A model generated the notes under the pieces. The model worked only from the letters and a program-made list of their open reading frames with translations. It searched no databases and was not told the DNA's origin. Of a stretch of DNA of 51,762 bases, positions 40,389-47,658 are shown in pieces. Position 1 is the first letter of the stretch. The number at the start of each line of letters is the position of its first letter. The stretch comes from Candidatus Sulfuritelmatomonas gaucii (lineage in GTDB: Bacteria > Acidobacteriota > Terriglobia > Terriglobales > Acidobacteriaceae), in assembly GCA_900290245.1 (NCBI GenBank), contig OKRB01000087.1, positions 4,524-56,285 of the forward strand. The letters run 5' to 3'. A program made the position numbers and the translations under genes.

Positions 40389-41831
40389 TCACGAGTTGGC
40401 GGCGGGATGAATCTCGCGGAGGCGCGCGGGAAGTTTCTCATAAATGCCGTCGAAGCCGCCATTGGAAAGGATGGCGACGACATCTCCGGCGGCGAATTTG
40501 GGCGCGAGGGACGCAACAATTGCGTCGGCGTCGGCAAGGACTTCGGCAGGCGTGCCTTCGGCGTTGAGCGCACCAACCACATCTTCGGGGTGCAGGCGTT
40601 CGGCCTCGGGAATGCGCTGCTGCTGGTAGACACCGGCGAGAATGACGTGATCGGCGAGACGAAGGCTGGAGACGAGATCTGCTGCAAGCACCTTGCGACG
40701 GAGCGTGTTGGAGCGCGGTTCAAGCACCGCCCAAAGGCGCGCACCCGGGTAAATGCTGCGCAAGGTACGCAAGGTTTCGCGGATTGCGGTGGGGTGGTGG
40801 GCGAAGTCCTCGATGAGGGTGATGCCGGCGATCTCGGCACGGACTTCAAGGCGGCGCTTGACGCTTTTGAACGTCGCGATTGCCTCGACGACGGGCTCGG
40901 TGGGGATTCCCTGGCAAGCTGCGAGGCATGCGGCGGCGGTGGCGTTCAGCGCATTGTGTTCGCCGGCGAGATGCATTTCAAGCTTGGCCCATAGCGCGCC
41001 CGCACGCCAGATTTCCCAATGCATGCGGCCGTTTTCGTAATGCAGTTTGCGAATCTGCCAGTCAGCACTTTCGCTGAAGCCGTACCGCTCTACTCGGCAG
41101 AAGGCGCGGCTGACGCACTCATTTACGTTTTCGCTGCCGTCGTAGGCTACGATGAGGCCGCGGCGCGGGACAAGATTGACGAGGAGCTTGAACGCGCGCT
41201 TGACCGCATCGAGATCTGCGTAGATGTCGGCGTGGTCGAACTCGACATGCGTGAGAATGAGCGCATCGGGAAAGTAGTGGAGAAACTTCGGCCCCTTATC
41301 GAAGAAGACCGTGTCGTATTCGTCGCCCTCGATGATGAAAGTCTGTGTTTGACGCAACTGGAAGCTGGATCCAAAATTCTCTGCGACTCCGCCGATCAGA
41401 AAGGATGGCTCGAGCGCTGGATTTTGGCGCGCTGCCACCTGGTAAATCCACGCAAGCATGCTGGTGGTGGTGGTCTTGCCGTGCGTTCCGGCAACAACGA
41501 GCGGCGAGCGGCCTTTCAGGAACTCATCATGGAGCAGAGCGGCCATCGATGTGCAGGGAATGTGCTCGTCGAGCACGCGCTCGATTTCGGGGTTTTCGCG
41601 AGAGAGCGCATTGCCGATGACAACGAGATCGGGCAAGGGAGTGAGATTCGATTCAGCGTAAGGCGAAAGGATGGGGATGCCGAGCGAACGGAGAAGATCG
41701 CTCATCGGCGGATAGGCGCCGCTGTCTGAGCCCGTGACGCGATGCCCCTGCAATTGGAGGAGGCCGGCAAGCGAGGCCATGGCCGTGCCGCAAATGCCGA
41801 TCAGGTGAATGTGGCGCGCCGGAGCGGTCAC
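40389..41831 (-). CDS. mpl: UDP-MurNAc:L-Ala-gamma-D-Glu-meso-DAP ligase
   Basis: The protein has 480 residues of the Mur ligase family, Mpl branch. It attaches the recycled murein tripeptide directly to UDP-MurNAc. Visible are the N-terminal Rossmann-like motif (HLIGICGTAMASLAGLLQ), the ATP loop AGTHGKTTTTSML, the Mpl-typical EGDEYDTVFFDKGPKFLHY, and the C-terminal DFAHHPTAIRETL. Its start overlaps the ldcA stop by four bases, so the two are translationally coupled. The neighbour LdcA supplies the tripeptide, which matches this role. Confidence 0.95.
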   Translation of the reverse strand: MTAPARHIHLIGICGTAMASLAGLLQLQGHRVTGSDSGAYPPMSDLLRSLGIPILSPYAESNLTPLPDLVVIGNALSRENPEIERVLDEHIPCTSMAALLHDEFLKGRSPLVVAGTHGKTTTTSMLAWIYQVAARQNPALEPSFLIGGVAENFGSSFQLRQTQTFIIEGDEYDTVFFDKGPKFLHYFPDALILTHVEFDHADIYADLDAVKRAFKLLVNLVPRRGLIVAYDGSENVNECVSRAFCRVERYGFSESADWQIRKLHYENGRMHWEIWRAGALWAKLEMHLAGEHNALNATAAACLAACQGIPTEPVVEAIATFKSVKRRLEVRAEIAGITLIEDFAHHPTAIRETLRTLRSIYPGARLWAVLEPRSNTLRRKVLAADLVSSLRLADHVILAGVYQQQRIPEAERLHPEDVVGALNAEGTPAEVLADADAIVASLAPKFAAGDVVAILSNGGFDGIYEKLPARLREIHPAANS

Positions 41832-42772
41832 TTCGCCACCGCCGGTTCGAGCAGTTGAAGGCGAGGATTTTCGCCCACCGTGAGTTCGGCTTCGACGCCG
41901 AAGGTGAGCGTGACATTTTCGCGCGAGACGTGGCCGCTGCGCAGGCCGATGGCGATGGGGCCATCAAAGTCGTCGAGAGCGCTGAGGATGGCTTGATCGA
42001 GCAGATCCGGCGCGGCGTCAGCGGGGAGGCAATCGACCATCTCGCCAAAAACGATTCCGCACACTCCGTCGAGTTTTCTTGCCTTGCGCAGCTGCCAGAG
42101 CATGCGGTCAATTTGGTACGGCTTGGCGGCGCGGTCTTCAAGAAACAGCAGCGTACCCTCAGTGCACGGCTCCCACGGCGTGCCGAGGAGCGAAACAATG
42201 ATGCTGAGGCAGCCGCCATAGAGCGTACCGCGCGCGGGGGACGATACTGCGCCGGTTTTCAATGTGCGCAATCCTTCGTCCGCGCCCACGACGTAGGGTT
42301 CGCCGGCGAGAGCTGCGCGGAAACTGTCGAGATGAACGCCATTGTGCAGATAGAAATCTGAGGCCAGCATGGGGCCGTGAAATGCAGGCAGGCCCAACTC
42401 ATCGAGCAGGCGCAGTTGCAGGCAGGTGAGGTCGCTGTAAGCGAAGAAGGGCTTAGGGTGTGAGGCAACGGTCTCGATGTTCAAATGCTCAAGCAGGTAA
42501 TTTGATCCGTACCCACCGCGCAGGCTCATGACGGCGCTCGTGCCGGGGTCAGCGAATGCAGCGTTCAGGTCGGCGAGTCGCTGGTCCGACGTTCCGGCGA
42601 AATATAGCGGCCCGCGAGTAAGAGTGTTCGGGTTCAATTTCGGGGTAAACCCAAGGTCGCGTAAGGCCGCGAGGCCGCGCTCCGTGCACTCCGGTTGTGC
42701 AAAAGACGCAGGCGCTACGATGCTGATGGCCGCATCGGACGCGATGGCTGGCGGCTTCATCAAGGGCGCCAT
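41828..42772 (-). CDS. ldcA: LD-carboxypeptidase (peptidase S66)
   Basis: The protein has 314 residues from the ATG ending at 42772, one base after the dapF stop and with GGAGAGG ten bases upstream; an in-frame ATG at 42796 lies inside dapF and another at 42760 is possible. It removes D-Ala from the murein tetrapeptide in the cytoplasm during recycling. The S66 triad is visible: Ser in FFAYSDLTCL, Glu in TLLFLEDRA and His in LRSGHVSRE. MSLRGGYGSNYL is also typical. It overlaps mpl by four bases. Confidence 0.94.
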   Translation of the reverse strand: MAPLMKPPAIASDAAISIVAPASFAQPECTERGLAALRDLGFTPKLNPNTLTRGPLYFAGTSDQRLADLNAAFADPGTSAVMSLRGGYGSNYLLEHLNIETVASHPKPFFAYSDLTCLQLRLLDELGLPAFHGPMLASDFYLHNGVHLDSFRAALAGEPYVVGADEGLRTLKTGAVSSPARGTLYGGCLSIIVSLLGTPWEPCTEGTLLFLEDRAAKPYQIDRMLWQLRKARKLDGVCGIVFGEMVDCLPADAAPDLLDQAILSALDDFDGPIAIGLRSGHVSRENVTLTFGVEAELTVGENPRLQLLEPAVAK

Positions 42773-42773
42773 C

Positions 42774-43592
42774 TCACCACGCCTCTCCGCAGGCAATCAA
42801 CGAAGCCGGCCCGGTCAAATCCAGTTCCATCCCCGGCCCACCCCACGACACTGCCTGCGCGCCGCCGGGGGCAATGACCGTTAGCGGCGAAACGCAGCGG
42901 CGCAACGCAAGAGCCGCGGTGGCGGCGGCTGAACTGCCGGTGCCGGATGAGGTTGTGGGGCCCACGCCGCGCTCAAAAATGCGAACCTCGATCTCATGTT
43001 CGCTCAAGATACGCACAAACTCGACGTTGGTCTGGTTCGGAAAATCGCGATGCGCGCAGACCTCAGCGCCGATGGTTTGCCAGGCTTTGCCGTCAATCGA
43101 GAAATCAGAGTTCTCGACCAGAATGACGAAGTGAGGATTGCCGACAGACACTTCAACACCGACGATCTCGGCGCCATGAGTCAGCTTGAGGGTGTGCGGC
43201 ATAAACTTCGGCACATCCATGTTTGTGGTCACTTCGACGGAAAAGCCAGGATCCTTCCTGACCGCGTCGATGCGGCAGATGCGCAAGCCGGCATCCGTGA
43301 CAATCTCCAGTTCGTCGCCGCGCTCTGACGCCAGAACTTCGGCCATCCATGCAGCGACGCAACGTGTGCCGTTGCCGCTGATCTCAGCGATCGAGCCGTC
43401 GGCGTTATGCAGGCGGATGCGGGAAGACTTCGGGCCGGTCCATGAAAAAAACTCCACGCCGTCAGCGCCGATGCCGGCGTTCCGCAGGCAGAGTCGGCGC
43501 GTGACATCCGGGCGATCGTGGTCGGGAACGGCATCTTCGTTCACAATCAGAAAATCGTTGCCGCAGGCATGGGCCTTGGTATAGGGGATCAA
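42774..43592 (-). CDS. dapF: DapF-family epimerase with both catalytic Cys as Ser
   Basis: The protein has 272 residues and covers the whole diaminopimelate epimerase fold (two pseudo-symmetric halves). KAHACGNDFLIV near the start, GNPHFVILVE with the conserved His154, and FERGVG with Glu207 are kept. In characterised DapF the two acid/base catalysts are cysteines, in CGNG and ACGSG. Here they are serines: Ser72 in EISGNGTRC and Ser216 in TSSGTGSS. The gene heads a tightly packed dapF-ldcA-mpl operon, which supports a role in meso-diaminopimelate metabolism. Whether it is an active epimerase, a slow variant or an enzyme for another substrate is open. Confidence 0.88.
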   Translation of the reverse strand: MIPYTKAHACGNDFLIVNEDAVPDHDRPDVTRRLCLRNAGIGADGVEFFSWTGPKSSRIRLHNADGSIAEISGNGTRCVAAWMAEVLASERGDELEIVTDAGLRICRIDAVRKDPGFSVEVTTNMDVPKFMPHTLKLTHGAEIVGVEVSVGNPHFVILVENSDFSIDGKAWQTIGAEVCAHRDFPNQTNVEFVRILSEHEIEVRIFERGVGPTTSSGTGSSAAATAALALRRCVSPLTVIAPGGAQAVSWGGPGMELDLTGPASLIACGEAW

Positions 43593-43806
43593 GCTTCCTC
43601 CGAAGTATGGAAAGAAAGATATGCGCCGATCGCCGATTAAGCGATTCGAGATGTAGCGAACAGTGGCGCGGTCATGCGGTGCTTCTTGACCCTTTGATGC
43701 AAATGACGAAAGCCGGGCTATTGTGCGATCCCTATGGAAACGGACTACATGGCGGTTCCTTGCCCGATGCTATCACCGGTGACGGCGGGTTGTTGAGCAA
43801 GCGGCT

Positions 43807-45573
43807 TCATTTGGGATTGCTTTGATTCTCAGCAGGGTGGCTTTCGGGAGGGGCCGGCGATTGCCTTTTCGACAGCGGCCTCTGACCGATCCACCCTGAA
43901 GAAAGATAGACCGTGGCGGATGGCTGGCCTCGTGCTGTAAAGCGCCCGGCGACATCCAGGCTCTCAGGGTGGTCCTTGACGGCGCGGTCGATTTCGTCGC
44001 CGTCGAAGGCCACGATGACGGCGGCATGAGTGGAAGGTGCGGCCAGCGCAGCACGGAAGATTCCAAGATCGCTTTCGTTGATGGTCTGGCGAAGGGGAAT
44101 TCCGGTGAGCGAGACGATCTCGGGGTAGATCGACGTATTCATCAGTACGGGCCCGTGCGGAAGACCCGCGAGCAGTTGTTGCAAAAAGGGAGGGATGGCG
44201 TGGTCGTAGGGCAGACGTGCGTCGAGGTTTTTCGTGCCCTCAACATAGACGAGGGGATCTTCGCACAGGAGCGCAACGGCATTGAGGCCGGAGAGCGCAA
44301 AGAGTGCAGTGAAGACGACTTTCGGCAGGATCTGCTGGATGCGCAAGAGGCTGGGGAAACGCGGCACGAGCCGCGCAAGATTGGGCGTGCGGATCGCGTC
44401 GATAATCAACTGCGCCGCGAAGCCGAGACCCAGCGCGAGGGCGGGCAACAGTTCGAGTCCATAGCGGGTGTTGTACCAGGTGTATGGCCACCAGGCGGGG
44501 AAAAAGATGGGCACCGATCCGTAGGCGACCGACCAAGCGTAGAAGGGGACAGGCAGCCAGAGGAGCAGGAGCCACGCGAATGCGCGCCGGCACGACCCGA
44601 CCTTCTGAATAAACCATGCGATGGCGGTTCCCAGTGCGGCGAGCATAAGAACAGGGTTGCCCCATGCCGCGGTGGTAAAGTCGAGCTCCGAGACTTTAAG
44701 GAAGTAGAGCAGTGCAACCCAGGGACTGTGCCAGCCGGGATGCAGCGGCCAGCACGGGGACATTGCGGCGGTGCGGAGCTCGATAGCTTTGGCAGAGAAA
44801 GGCCCGCGCGCGAAATAAAGCCAGTCGCCGAAGCCGATCGAGTTGTAGAGGAACCAGCAGATGGGCGATGCGGCGATCGCGATGCTCGACAGCCAGAAAG
44901 CGGGCGAGCTGAGGCGGCCGCGCTCGCGATGTAAGGAGAGCCGGAGCAACGTGAGGCCGATGCCAGTCCATGCGAGGAGAGCAATGATCCAGCCGTCGTA
45001 GCGCGTGAAGATGGCTACAACCAACGCAGCGGCGATGCAGGCTTGGAGGCGGTTGGCAGTCGTCGCAGCCTGAGCTGTGTCGCGATCAAGGCAGAGACGC
45101 CACTCGACCATCCAGAGCACGATCCAGACGAACTCGCAAAGAAAGAGCGGTTCGGTCATGGCCGTGGTTTGCAGGTAGAGCAGATTTGGATTCAGCGCGA
45201 AGAAAGCGAGCGCAATTCCGGATGCGGCGGGACTGAGCCAATGGCGCGCAAGGCGATAGATTCCTGCGCAGGAAGCAAGATAAGCAAGCGCCGAGGGAAT
45301 GACGCCGGCGAGCCCGGTGGCCCACCACTCGTAGCTTTGAACGAAGGGAATGAGGAGAATGTGCGGCAGAGGCAACCACACCGAGCCCAGTTGTGTGAAG
45401 CGGGGAGTGCGCGAATCGAAGACCCGGCGAGCAATGTGCAGGTGGGCGACCGCGTCGCCATAGTTGAGCAGCACGCCGTGATTCCAGCTCCAGACGATGG
45501 CGGCTGCCGAGGCCGCCAAGCAGAACAGAAGAACGGCCCAGCCTTCAGCATCAGAGATGCTTCTCTCAGTCAA
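43807..45573 (-). CDS. Membrane glycosyltransferase, GT39/ArnT-like
   Basis: The protein has 588 residues from a TTG overlapping the pfkB stop by eight bases. The open frame upstream runs through pfkB and gives no sensible protein. It has about a dozen membrane helices with the GT-C layout. An acidic motif in the first large loop (NYGDAVAHLHIARRVFD) is where ArnT/PMT-type enzymes hold the catalytic Asp. Conserved-looking aromatic loops follow (WWPYTWYNTRYGLELLP). A short soluble C-terminal part ends in a Pro/Ser-rich tail. It likely transfers a sugar from a polyprenyl phosphate on the periplasmic side. The acceptor is unknown. Confidence 0.8.
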   Translation of the reverse strand: MTERSISDAEGWAVLLFCLAASAAAIVWSWNHGVLLNYGDAVAHLHIARRVFDSRTPRFTQLGSVWLPLPHILLIPFVQSYEWWATGLAGVIPSALAYLASCAGIYRLARHWLSPAASGIALAFFALNPNLLYLQTTAMTEPLFLCEFVWIVLWMVEWRLCLDRDTAQAATTANRLQACIAAALVVAIFTRYDGWIIALLAWTGIGLTLLRLSLHRERGRLSSPAFWLSSIAIAASPICWFLYNSIGFGDWLYFARGPFSAKAIELRTAAMSPCWPLHPGWHSPWVALLYFLKVSELDFTTAAWGNPVLMLAALGTAIAWFIQKVGSCRRAFAWLLLLWLPVPFYAWSVAYGSVPIFFPAWWPYTWYNTRYGLELLPALALGLGFAAQLIIDAIRTPNLARLVPRFPSLLRIQQILPKVVFTALFALSGLNAVALLCEDPLVYVEGTKNLDARLPYDHAIPPFLQQLLAGLPHGPVLMNTSIYPEIVSLTGIPLRQTINESDLGIFRAALAAPSTHAAVIVAFDGDEIDRAVKDHPESLDVAGRFTARGQPSATVYLSSGWIGQRPLSKRQSPAPPESHPAENQSNPK

Positions 45574-46495
45574 GGTGCGTGATCTCGCGAAAGAGATTGA
45601 AGCGCGCGTCGATCTCGGAGCGTGAGATCTGCTGCAGACGCTCGGTGCCGAAGCGCTCGCAGGCATAGGAGCCCATGACCCCGCCGTAAAACATAGCGTG
45701 ACGCCAGGCGGCCGGTGTGGGCTCGAGTTGCGAGGCCAAGTAACCGAAGAAGCCGCCCGCAAAGCTGTCGCCGGCACCGGTGGGATCGATGACCTCTTTG
45801 AGCGGGAGGGCCGGAGCCCTGAAGGTGTGGAGTTCCGCTTTTCGACCCTTTGGAGTTATTTCGTGGAACAGTGTCGCGCCGTATTCGCCGTGTTTGACGA
45901 CCAATGCGCGCGGGCCGAGAGCCATGACGCCGCGCGCAGCCTGCACGAGATTGGTGTTGCCAGCGAGCATGCGTGCTTCAGTGTCGTTGATGAGCAGCAC
46001 GTCGAGGCCCTTGAGGACTTCAAGCAGGGCCGGACGGTGATCCTTGATCCAGTAGTTCATGGTGTCGCCCGCGACTAGTTTGACCCCGGGCATAGCGTCG
46101 CGCACGCGGCGCTGCAAGACGGGATCGATATTAGCGAGAAAGAGGAAGTCGGAGTCGCGATAAGCATCGGGGATTTTCGGCTCGAAAGAAGCGAAGACAT
46201 TGAGTTCAGTGTTGTGGGTCTTGGCCTCGTTGATGTTTTCGAGATAGGAGCCCTCCCAGAAGAAGCTCTTGCCGGGCGCGCGTTCGATGCCGCGCGTGTC
46301 GATATTGCGGGCGGCGAAGACGGCCTCCTGCTCTGGGCCAAAGTCCTCGCCCACGACGGCGATGACGCGGACGTTGGTGAAATAACTGGCGGCGAGCGAG
46401 AAATAAGTCGCCGCGCCCCCGAGGCAGCGCTCGCGGCGGCCGGCGGGGGTTTCAATGGAATCGTAGGCGACGCTGCCAACTACCGTAATTGCCAT
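45566..46495 (-). CDS. PfkB-family carbohydrate/nucleoside kinase
   Basis: The protein has 309 residues. The N-terminal sugar-binding half includes GSVAYDSIETPAG and LGGAATYFSLAASYF, and the anion-hole/catalytic motif DPTGAGDSFAGGFFGYL is intact near residue 240. KHGEYGATLF precedes it. The family phosphorylates sugars or nucleosides (ribose, adenosine, fructose derivatives). The two genes upstream are the small ORF and mtnP, so a substrate from methylthioadenosine breakdown, such as adenosine or a ribose derivative, is plausible but unproven. Confidence 0.9.
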   Translation of the reverse strand: MAITVVGSVAYDSIETPAGRRERCLGGAATYFSLAASYFTNVRVIAVVGEDFGPEQEAVFAARNIDTRGIERAPGKSFFWEGSYLENINEAKTHNTELNVFASFEPKIPDAYRDSDFLFLANIDPVLQRRVRDAMPGVKLVAGDTMNYWIKDHRPALLEVLKGLDVLLINDTEARMLAGNTNLVQAARGVMALGPRALVVKHGEYGATLFHEITPKGRKAELHTFRAPALPLKEVIDPTGAGDSFAGGFFGYLASQLEPTPAAWRHAMFYGGVMGSYACERFGTERLQQISRSEIDARFNLFREITHLD

Positions 46496-46531
46496 AGGTC
46501 TCCTAAAGGGCTGAATTCGTATCAGTATGGG

Positions 46532-46765
46532 TCAGGGCCTGTAAATGTGCCCATCGATCCTCAGCGCGGGGCACCAGAAACAAAATCGCACTTGTTTTTG
46601 CGGCGCAATCTCCGAAGTATCGATCGAGCGCCACCAATGCAGGCCCACCTTGCAAAATATGCTGCTGAAAGACGGCGCCTCATGCTCCCGGTGTGGCCAG
46701 AGCATTGCCAAACTGGCAGCAAGCTGCTGGTCGGTAAATCGCACGGATTCTGATGCTCTCGTCAT
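46532..46765 (-). CDS. Small zinc-ribbon-like protein, unknown function
   Basis: The protein has 77 residues from the ATG at 46765 (a TTG four codons earlier is possible). It contains IFCKVGLHWWRSID and, 20 residues later, VRFCFWCPALRIDG. This gives three cysteines and a histidine spaced like a compact metal-binding ribbon (C...H...CxxC). No family is recognised. No strong ribosome-binding site is seen, but it fits between mtnP (26 bp upstream) and pfkB (36 bp downstream) on the same strand. That favours a real gene. An antisense frame of similar size exists. Confidence 0.5.
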   Translation of the reverse strand: MTRASESVRFTDQQLAASLAMLWPHREHEAPSFSSIFCKVGLHWWRSIDTSEIAPQKQVRFCFWCPALRIDGHIYRP

Positions 46766-46791
46766 TGCGTCATCCAAACCAGCTTTGTAGT

Positions 46792-47658
46792 TTACCAGCC
46801 GTGGTACTTACCAAAGAGCAGTTTCAACCGCTCTTTTGCCGCTTCGGGAATCGCGTCGGGCTGCGTTAGCACCGCATACTTTGCCGCTGAAACACAGGCA
46901 CAAGTCCGTTCGCGCGGCATGGCGGCAACGGCTGCCTTCACTACTTTGCAAGCATTGTCGGCATTCCTGTGCAGCACTGCAACGATCTCCTCAATGGTGA
47001 CGGCGTCGTGGCCCTCGTGCCAGCAGTCGTAGTCAGTGACCATGGCGACGGTGGCGTAGCAGATTTCGGCTTCGCGCGCGAGCTTGGCCTCCTGCAGGTT
47101 GGTCATGCCAATCACGTCCGCTCCACAACTGCGATAAAGGTTCGACTCGGCTCTGGTGGAGAATTGCGGGCCCTCCATGCAGACATAAGTGCCGCCTAGC
47201 TTGCCGATGACGCCGACCTTGGCGCAGGCATTGACGGCGGCTTTGGCGACGGTGGCGCAAACCGGATCGCCGAAGGCAACGTGGCCGACGATTCCGTCGC
47301 CGAAGAATGTCGAGATGCGATGGAAAGTGCGATCGATGAACTGATCGGGGATGACGAAGTCGGTGGGCTTGTGCTCTTCCTTAAGCGAACCGACAGCAGA
47401 GACTGAAAGAATGCGTTCGACGCCGAGCTTTTTAAACGCGTAAATGTTGGCGCGGAAGTTGAGCTCAGACGGGAGGACGCGATGGCCGCGGCCATGGCGC
47501 GCGAGAAAGGCGACCTTGCGGCCTTCGAGTTCGCCGACGACGAAGGCGTCAGACGGAGAGCCGAAGGGTGTTTCGACGCGCTCTTCGTGCACATTGGTGA
47601 ATCCGGGCATCGAATAGAGCCCGCTGCCGCCGATGATGCCGATCTCTGCGCTTGACAC
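46792..47658 (-). CDS. mtnP: S-methyl-5-prime-thioadenosine phosphorylase
   Basis: The protein has 288 residues from a GTG with AAGGAG seven to eight bases upstream. It splits methylthioadenosine into adenine and methylthioribose 1-phosphate for methionine salvage. Visible are [15 protein letters not shown], the phosphate-binding region [33 protein letters not shown] and [16 protein letters not shown], with the substrate Asp in TDYDCWHEG. The rest of the salvage pathway is not adjacent. Its leader holds a long inverted repeat (47684-47788). Confidence 0.95.

Follow-up and report, generated by a model that had tools for sequence, protein, structure and literature searches.

The dapF gene of Candidatus Sulfuritelmatomonas gaucii encodes a protein of the DapF family in which serine stands in place of both catalytic cysteines. 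This protein is probably the cell's own DAP epimerase, predicted to use a Ser/Ser acid-base pair in which both hydroxyls take part in proton transfer. First noticed as a single odd gene, it is one instance of a widespread DapF-family variant. Across the bacteria surveyed we also lean, with somewhat less assurance, towards a thiol-free branch of the family, in which two serine hydroxyls would stand in for the cysteine pair of an essential enzyme, the DAP epimerase, both in a large share of the Acidobacteriota and in a second clade (clade B) that extends over many phyla, possibly with more than one origin and with the Ser/Cys proteins of Chloroflexota as half-way states. The product of DAP epimerase is a key building block for the cell wall and for lysine, and the accepted mechanism of the DapF family is a cysteine thiol/thiolate pair. 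Mutant studies of related enzymes, in the portions available, suggest that a Ser/Ser form should barely work. If the Ser/Ser proteins were inactive, however, many bacteria would be without a DAP epimerase, which would be equally surprising.

A Ser/Ser member of the DapF family

The gene lies in a 51,762-nucleotide stretch of contig OKRB01000087.1, referred to here as the window, and its features are collected in Table 1. Its product scores 179.3 bits against the DapF equivalog model TIGR00652 (cut-off 114.65), where six further Ser-type proteins reach 232.8 to 268.3 bits, and 139.6 bits against PF01678. It has no match to the Pfam model of the proline racemase/4-hydroxyproline epimerase superfamily, nor to that of PhzF, which is not among the three Pfam families matched.

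Table 1. Features of the dapF locus, with positions counted from the first letter of the window.
Feature	Position	Strand	Basis
Ser/Ser DapF homologue, 272 aa, TTG start	42774..43592	minus	open reading frame; PF01678 and TIGR00652 matches
Ser72 codon AGC, site of catalytic Cys73/75	43377..43379	minus	alignment to solved DapFs
Ser216 codon TCC, site of catalytic Cys217/224	42945..42947	minus	alignment to solved DapFs
GGAGG, probable ribosome-binding site of dapF	43597..43601	minus	sequence; putative role
ldcA-like gene (LD-carboxypeptidase)	41828..42796 (listed start TTG 42796, likely ATG 42772)	minus	NF008424, 153.1 bits, below cut-off 378
mpl, murein tripeptide ligase	40389..41831 (4-base overlap with ldcA)	minus	TIGR01081, 420.3 bits, cut-off 388.7

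The defining feature of DapF is a pair of catalytic cysteines, Cys73 and Cys217 of the H. influenzae enzyme, and the dapF product carries Ser72 and Ser216 instead. As originally predicted, Ser72 aligns with Cys75 of the Anabaena enzyme and Ser216, the second serine of TSSG, with Cys224. The motifs on which that prediction was based (EISGNGTRC, TSSGTGSS, GNPHF and FERG) are each present in the minus-strand translation. Of the codons it named for the two serines, AGC is indeed that of Ser72, whereas TCA belongs to the neighboring Ser215. The supporting His154, described as kept, is found in the dapF product but is not invariant, the residue being His in 102, Gln in 28 and Asn in 8 of 138 Acidobacteriota-type Ser/Ser proteins. 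By profile, fold and substrate site the protein belongs with DapF; by the defining cysteine pair it stands outside. It is therefore best described as a Ser/Ser variant with a likely DapF function rather than as a canonical member. Automatic annotation masks this variant, since the proteins clear the equivalog cut-off.

Distribution and origin of the serine pair

The query and the best 120 of 8000 scored homologues are all Ser/Ser (121/121). Within the same GTDB family, a PF01678 match is present in 57 of 60 genomes, and their 58 DapF-family proteins are Ser/Ser without exception. From a wider draw of 247 Acidobacteriota genomes, 239 of them with a PF01678 match, genes were typed from 161 genomes representing 71 families. 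Ser/Ser is the only type in 37 of these families, one of which (f3) falls outside the main clade; the remainder consists of 26 families with Cys/Cys only, four with Cys/Ser only, one with clade-B Ser/Ser only, two that are mixed and one partial. Conservation of the pair across the Acidobacteriota, left as a question by the original prediction, thus holds for a large part of the phylum (36 of the 71 families that were typed belong to the main clade), and the pair also occurs beyond it. Four Acidobacteriota proteins (L022, L063, L090 and L105), found at two places of the tree, combine Cys at the first site with Ser at the second. Another, L056 of family f3, is a Ser/Ser protein inside a Cys/Cys clade with Val for the DAP-binding Asn164 (Anabaena numbering); it is also without Asn164 and perhaps represents an independent double swap.

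Outside the phylum, a scan of named genomes revealed clade B, a second Ser/Ser clade with the motifs EKSGNGLRIF and ASGSSSC; the scan used the first 80 of 575 relatives and is biased toward Ser-first proteins because one of its two patterns requires Ser at the first site. The records of clade B carry ten non-Acidobacteriota labels, namely Bacteroidota, Aquificota, Thermodesulfobacteriota (Dadabacteria), Rokuibacteriota, Methylomirabilota, Armatimonadota, Bacillota, Planctomycetota, Spirochaetota and FCPU426. Three DapF homologues from Chloroflexota are Ser/Cys. Every typed protein of clade B and of clade A, as the Acidobacteriota Ser/Ser clade is called here, has Ser at both sites. Repeats of genes already in the set (L002, L144, L145 and L153) were removed before counting. 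Among the solved DapF-like chains that were aligned (part of 17 matches) there is no wild-type Ser/Ser protein, and no earlier report of a natural Ser/Ser DapF was found in the open-access literature searched.

In a 56-row tree built without the two catalytic columns, clade A is supported at 99/98 and clade B at 100/99, and clade B joins the characterized Cys/Cys enzymes at 98/92, with the bootstrap not fully settled. The rows were thinned by identity, and the long or divergent sequences L066, L081, L085, L112, L118, L119, L120, L067, L110 and L064 were left out; the gapped L115 was excluded from the trees. A larger quick tree of 114 rows has the same outline. Under parsimony, the first catalytic site must have changed four times and the second five times. 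While clades A and B are apart in the best tree, a single clade uniting them is not rejected (p-AU 0.35). Ser/Ser possibly arose more than once.

Genome content and gene neighborhood

The assembly of Ca. S. gaucii (G000, 93.8% complete) holds one PF01678 gene, and the second DapF that the original prediction thought worth looking for was not found in it. Of the 57 same-family genomes, 54 contain just two PF01678 half-matches of one gene; the exceptions are two genomes with an extra sub-cut-off match and one, G290, with two Ser/Ser genes (L148 and L346). In a wider set of 28 genomes, a lone Ser-type gene occurs in 23 (Ser/Ser in 20, Ser/Cys in 3); of the other five, three have both kinds and two have Cys/Cys only. 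In the three with both kinds (G305, G306 and G308), a Ser/Ser gene occurs alongside a Cys/Cys gene, and the Ser/Ser protein there may therefore do something else. In Aquificota, all 81 genomes have two half-matches corresponding to one gene, and among the 66 that were typed Ser/Ser accounts for 21 and Cys/Cys for 45, as though either kind of gene took the place of the other.

The requirement for meso-DAP and the other routes to it were traced through further genes. MurE of Ca. S. gaucii carries DNPR, which we take to be the meso-DAP motif. LysA, which requires meso-DAP, is present in 59 of the 60 same-family genomes; the exception is the 93.8% complete assembly of Ca. S. gaucii itself, where its absence is likely an assembly gap. 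DAP dehydrogenase has no match in the Ca. S. gaucii genome and none over cut-off in the 60 same-family genomes, where five weak matches were seen. For the DapL route, the best aminotransferase scores 697.4 bits as an alanine transaminase (cut-off 647) versus 424.5 as DapL (cut-off 593.25). Three same-family genomes (G275, G279 and G295) have LysA and no PF01678 match, reflecting either an assembly gap or another epimerase. Because of these three, and of the missing LysA in the Ca. S. gaucii assembly, another route to meso-DAP is conceivable. On whether the walls of Acidobacteriota contain meso-DAP, a search of the open-access literature returned no paper of use. Since the sole DapF-type gene is Ser/Ser, and whole branches of the family are likewise, the thiol-free enzyme likely makes meso-DAP.

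As proposed, dapF likely heads a run with ldcA and mpl, in which ldcA probably begins at an ATG one base past the dapF stop. At 30 same-family loci of about 3.3 kb each, ldcA adjoins dapF in every case and mpl is present in 28. At other Acidobacteriota-type loci, 99 neighboring ORFs include 7 that are mpl-like and 5 LD-carboxypeptidases; outside the family, neighboring genes are a weak signal. The neighbor scans covered 99 of 178 and 88 of 123 ORFs, and four loci with an unplaceable dapF were skipped. In Tangfeifania a clade B Ser/Ser gene is directly followed by lysA (298.3 bits, cut-off 297.9), at L207 another is followed by a near-cut-off lysA, and in Chloroflexota a Ser/Cys gene is followed by DapL (604.7 bits, cut-off 593.25). 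Upstream of dapF, positions 43807-47658 of the minus strand contain a 656-aa ORF with no NCBIfam match, a pfkB-type kinase and an MTA phosphorylase; pfkB and MTA phosphorylase genes are also found near dapF in other Acidobacteriota families.

Of the three options initially considered, a lineage with a serine-based epimerase is favored, and an enzyme with another function or a binding protein is less likely; the same applies to loss of function, another substrate or a substitute cysteine. It is unlikely that the protein binds DAP or DAP peptides, or carries out another murein-recycling reaction, while a different, unrecognised enzyme makes meso-DAP. Such a role would suit the loss of both thiols and the operon with the recycling genes ldcA and mpl, but those neighbors are not general, and lysA or dapL adjoin relatives elsewhere. 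The genomes with LysA and no PF01678 match, and those with a Ser/Ser beside a Cys/Cys gene, are three each; against them stand 57 of 57 same-family genomes whose only DapF-family genes are Ser/Ser and the lack of a DAP dehydrogenase over cut-off in all 60. The retention of the six DAP contacts and of the helix N-cap positions, described below, also argues for an epimerase. To our knowledge, moreover, known murein recycling systems need no separate binding protein.

Substrate site and predicted fold

In Anabaena DapF, the side chains that bind DAP are given as Asn13, Asn66, Asn164, Asn197, Glu215 and Arg216 in the accessible part of the structural report (PMC12039745). Aligned with them in the dapF product are Asn12, Asn63, Asn152, Asn189, Glu207 and Arg208. 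After removal of seven identical repeats, all six contacts are kept in 203 of 204 distinct Ser/Ser proteins, in 3/3 Ser/Cys proteins and in 5/5 solved Cys/Cys references. The full set is found in one of the 89 other Cys/Cys proteins sampled, which are mostly from Acidobacteriota and Aquificota and are not representative of Cys/Cys DapFs at large. Val occupies the position of Asn164 in 73 of these 89 distinct proteins; by phylum, the typed Cys/Cys proteins have it in 28 of 41 cases in Acidobacteriota and in 45 of 45 in Aquificota. Since Cys/Cys proteins with this Val are the sole DapF gene in Aquificota genomes, the six contacts are not strictly required for the role.

An AlphaFold2 model of the dapF product, made with 60 sequences, has a pLDDT of 93.5 and places helices at residues 73-86 and 217-230, so both serines would lie immediately before two central helices. 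A second model reached a pLDDT of 94.8, and in both models the serines directly precede helices. With the predicted model as query, Foldseek ranks 1-26 against the PDB are all DapF or O-ureidoserine racemase. By Z the top structural match is O-ureidoserine racemase (Z 33.1, 2.2 Å over 258 residues), and 9mro has 31.8.

This top match lends some color to the idea that the Ser/Ser pair serves to racemize or epimerize a substrate other than DAP, such as an amino acid resembling O-ureidoserine, lanthionine or histidine, although we think that very improbable. HisR and PddB are indeed DapF relatives with other substrates (excerpts of PMC11602996 and PMC8225329), and F. nucleatum HisR was initially mistaken for DapF (PMC11602996, same excerpts). 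However, Arg208, Asn63, Asn152 and Asn189, whose counterparts hold the distal DAP carboxylate in Anabaena DapF (PMC12039745, in the part available), are retained by every Ser/Ser protein except one, and under this reading the checked genomes would be without a DAP epimerase.

Substitute catalysts and gene decay

The original prediction allowed that other cysteines, such as Cys78, might occupy the catalytic positions. This objection fails, as every cysteine is missing from at least some of the Ser/Ser proteins. Cys78 is present in 130 of 138 Acidobacteriota-type Ser/Ser proteins and in 0/28 of clade B, while Cys35 is present in 133/138, in 28/28 and in 38 of 41 Cys/Cys proteins. Another cysteine as a substitute was rejected, none being common to both Ser/Ser clades yet missing from Cys/Cys proteins. 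A comparison of the clade A and clade B alignments found no activating residue near the serines that is specific to both clades; clade B has Tyr14, Ile78, Ser219 and a Lys that precedes the first Ser (93%), and clade A has Ala81.

The Ser/Ser protein could instead be a poor epimerase, in which the catalyst is a group other than the serines (water or hydroxide, a different side chain or a neighboring cysteine), the serines only position it, and a slow rate suffices. Serine is a far weaker acid than cysteine, with a pKa of about 16 versus 10, and this gap is given as the reason why Cys-to-Ser mutants of PddB have less than 0.1% of wild-type activity (PMC8225329, in the sections available). HisR Cys-to-Ser mutants likewise have greatly reduced activity in the available text of PMC11602996. 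The near-invariance of Cys35 would suit a catalytic cysteine, but Cys35 is equally common in Cys/Cys proteins and absent from five Ser/Ser proteins, and no other cysteine is common to both clades. Furthermore, Ser is invariant at both sites, though Ala or Thr would do for mere packing. We accordingly give this reading little chance.

The two closest gene pairs have dN/dS values of 0.034 and 0.046, from which it is evident that Ser/Ser dapF is under purifying selection; between dapF of Ca. S. gaucii and that of a same-genus relative the value is 0.136, with dS near saturation. Sequencing error, initially seen as a possible objection, or chance is ruled out because the 121 listed homologues, query included, and the 58 same-family proteins all have the pair, which recurs in separately assembled genomes of different families and phyla, and a pseudogene or local mutation, with an open frame, low dN/dS and relatives bearing the same pair, is rejected as next to impossible.

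Proposed mechanism and implications

The cysteine enzymes have their thiolate at the N-terminus of a helix, where backbone amides form hydrogen bonds to it and the closed site is nearly water-free (PMC12039745, as far as its available text goes). By analogy, the DapF frame could support a serine alkoxide/hydroxyl pair. The nearly inactive Cys-to-Ser mutants of related enzymes weigh against such a pair, and the natural Ser/Cys epimerase described below is a precedent for one serine. We infer the substrate, the catalysis and the role of each serine as follows. As in DapF, the side chains of Asn12, Asn63, Asn152, Asn189, Glu207 and Arg208 would bind LL-DAP between the two domains, with its alpha-carbon flanked by Ser72 and Ser216, each at the N-terminus of one of the two central helices. 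One serine would take the alpha-proton as an alkoxide, which the helix dipole and backbone amides would stabilize in the closed, water-poor site. The other would donate a proton from the opposite face to give meso-DAP, which would then supply MurE, Mpl and LysA.

If a natural Ser/Ser enzyme is active, the DapF fold can abstract an alpha-proton with hydroxyls, and the roles of the helix dipole and of water exclusion become directly testable. Cysteine-reactive DapF inhibitors would, in that case, miss whole lineages.

Comparison with known enzymes

The closest known system is DapF itself (TIGR00652; PDB 9mro, 3ejx, 8qzy, 5ha4, 5ygu and others), with which the Ser/Ser protein shares the fold, the two-domain layout, the profile and the six DAP contacts. 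Where DapF has CGNG and CGTG loops at the helix N-termini, however, the Ser/Ser protein has SGNG and SGTG and is thus without a thiol for the thiol/thiolate pair. Natural serine at the first site is also known from the proline racemase superfamily, of related fold, where a 4-hydroxyproline 2-epimerase has Ser/Cys and a trans-3-hydroxyproline dehydratase Ser/Thr, according to the portions available of PMC4113996. There the epimerase has Ser at one site only and belongs to another branch of the superfamily with another substrate; an Asn motif that positions the Ser has been proposed for enzymes of that superfamily (PMC4113996, same portions).

Engineered enzymes match these atoms at a single site. 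The DapF mutants C73S and C217S of H. influenzae (PDB 2q9h and 2q9j) have serine at the same backbone position, and HisR C67S/C209S and PddB C233S/C101S, as described in the excerpts of their reports, likewise have Ser at one catalytic site. These are single artificial swaps in which catalysis is slowed or nearly abolished, whereas in the Ser/Ser proteins both sites are natural and have had a long evolution. Finally, the Cys/Cys DapFs with Val for Asn164 occupy the equivalent place in sister lineages within these phyla, each as the single such gene of its genome. They keep the cysteines and not the full set of DAP contacts.
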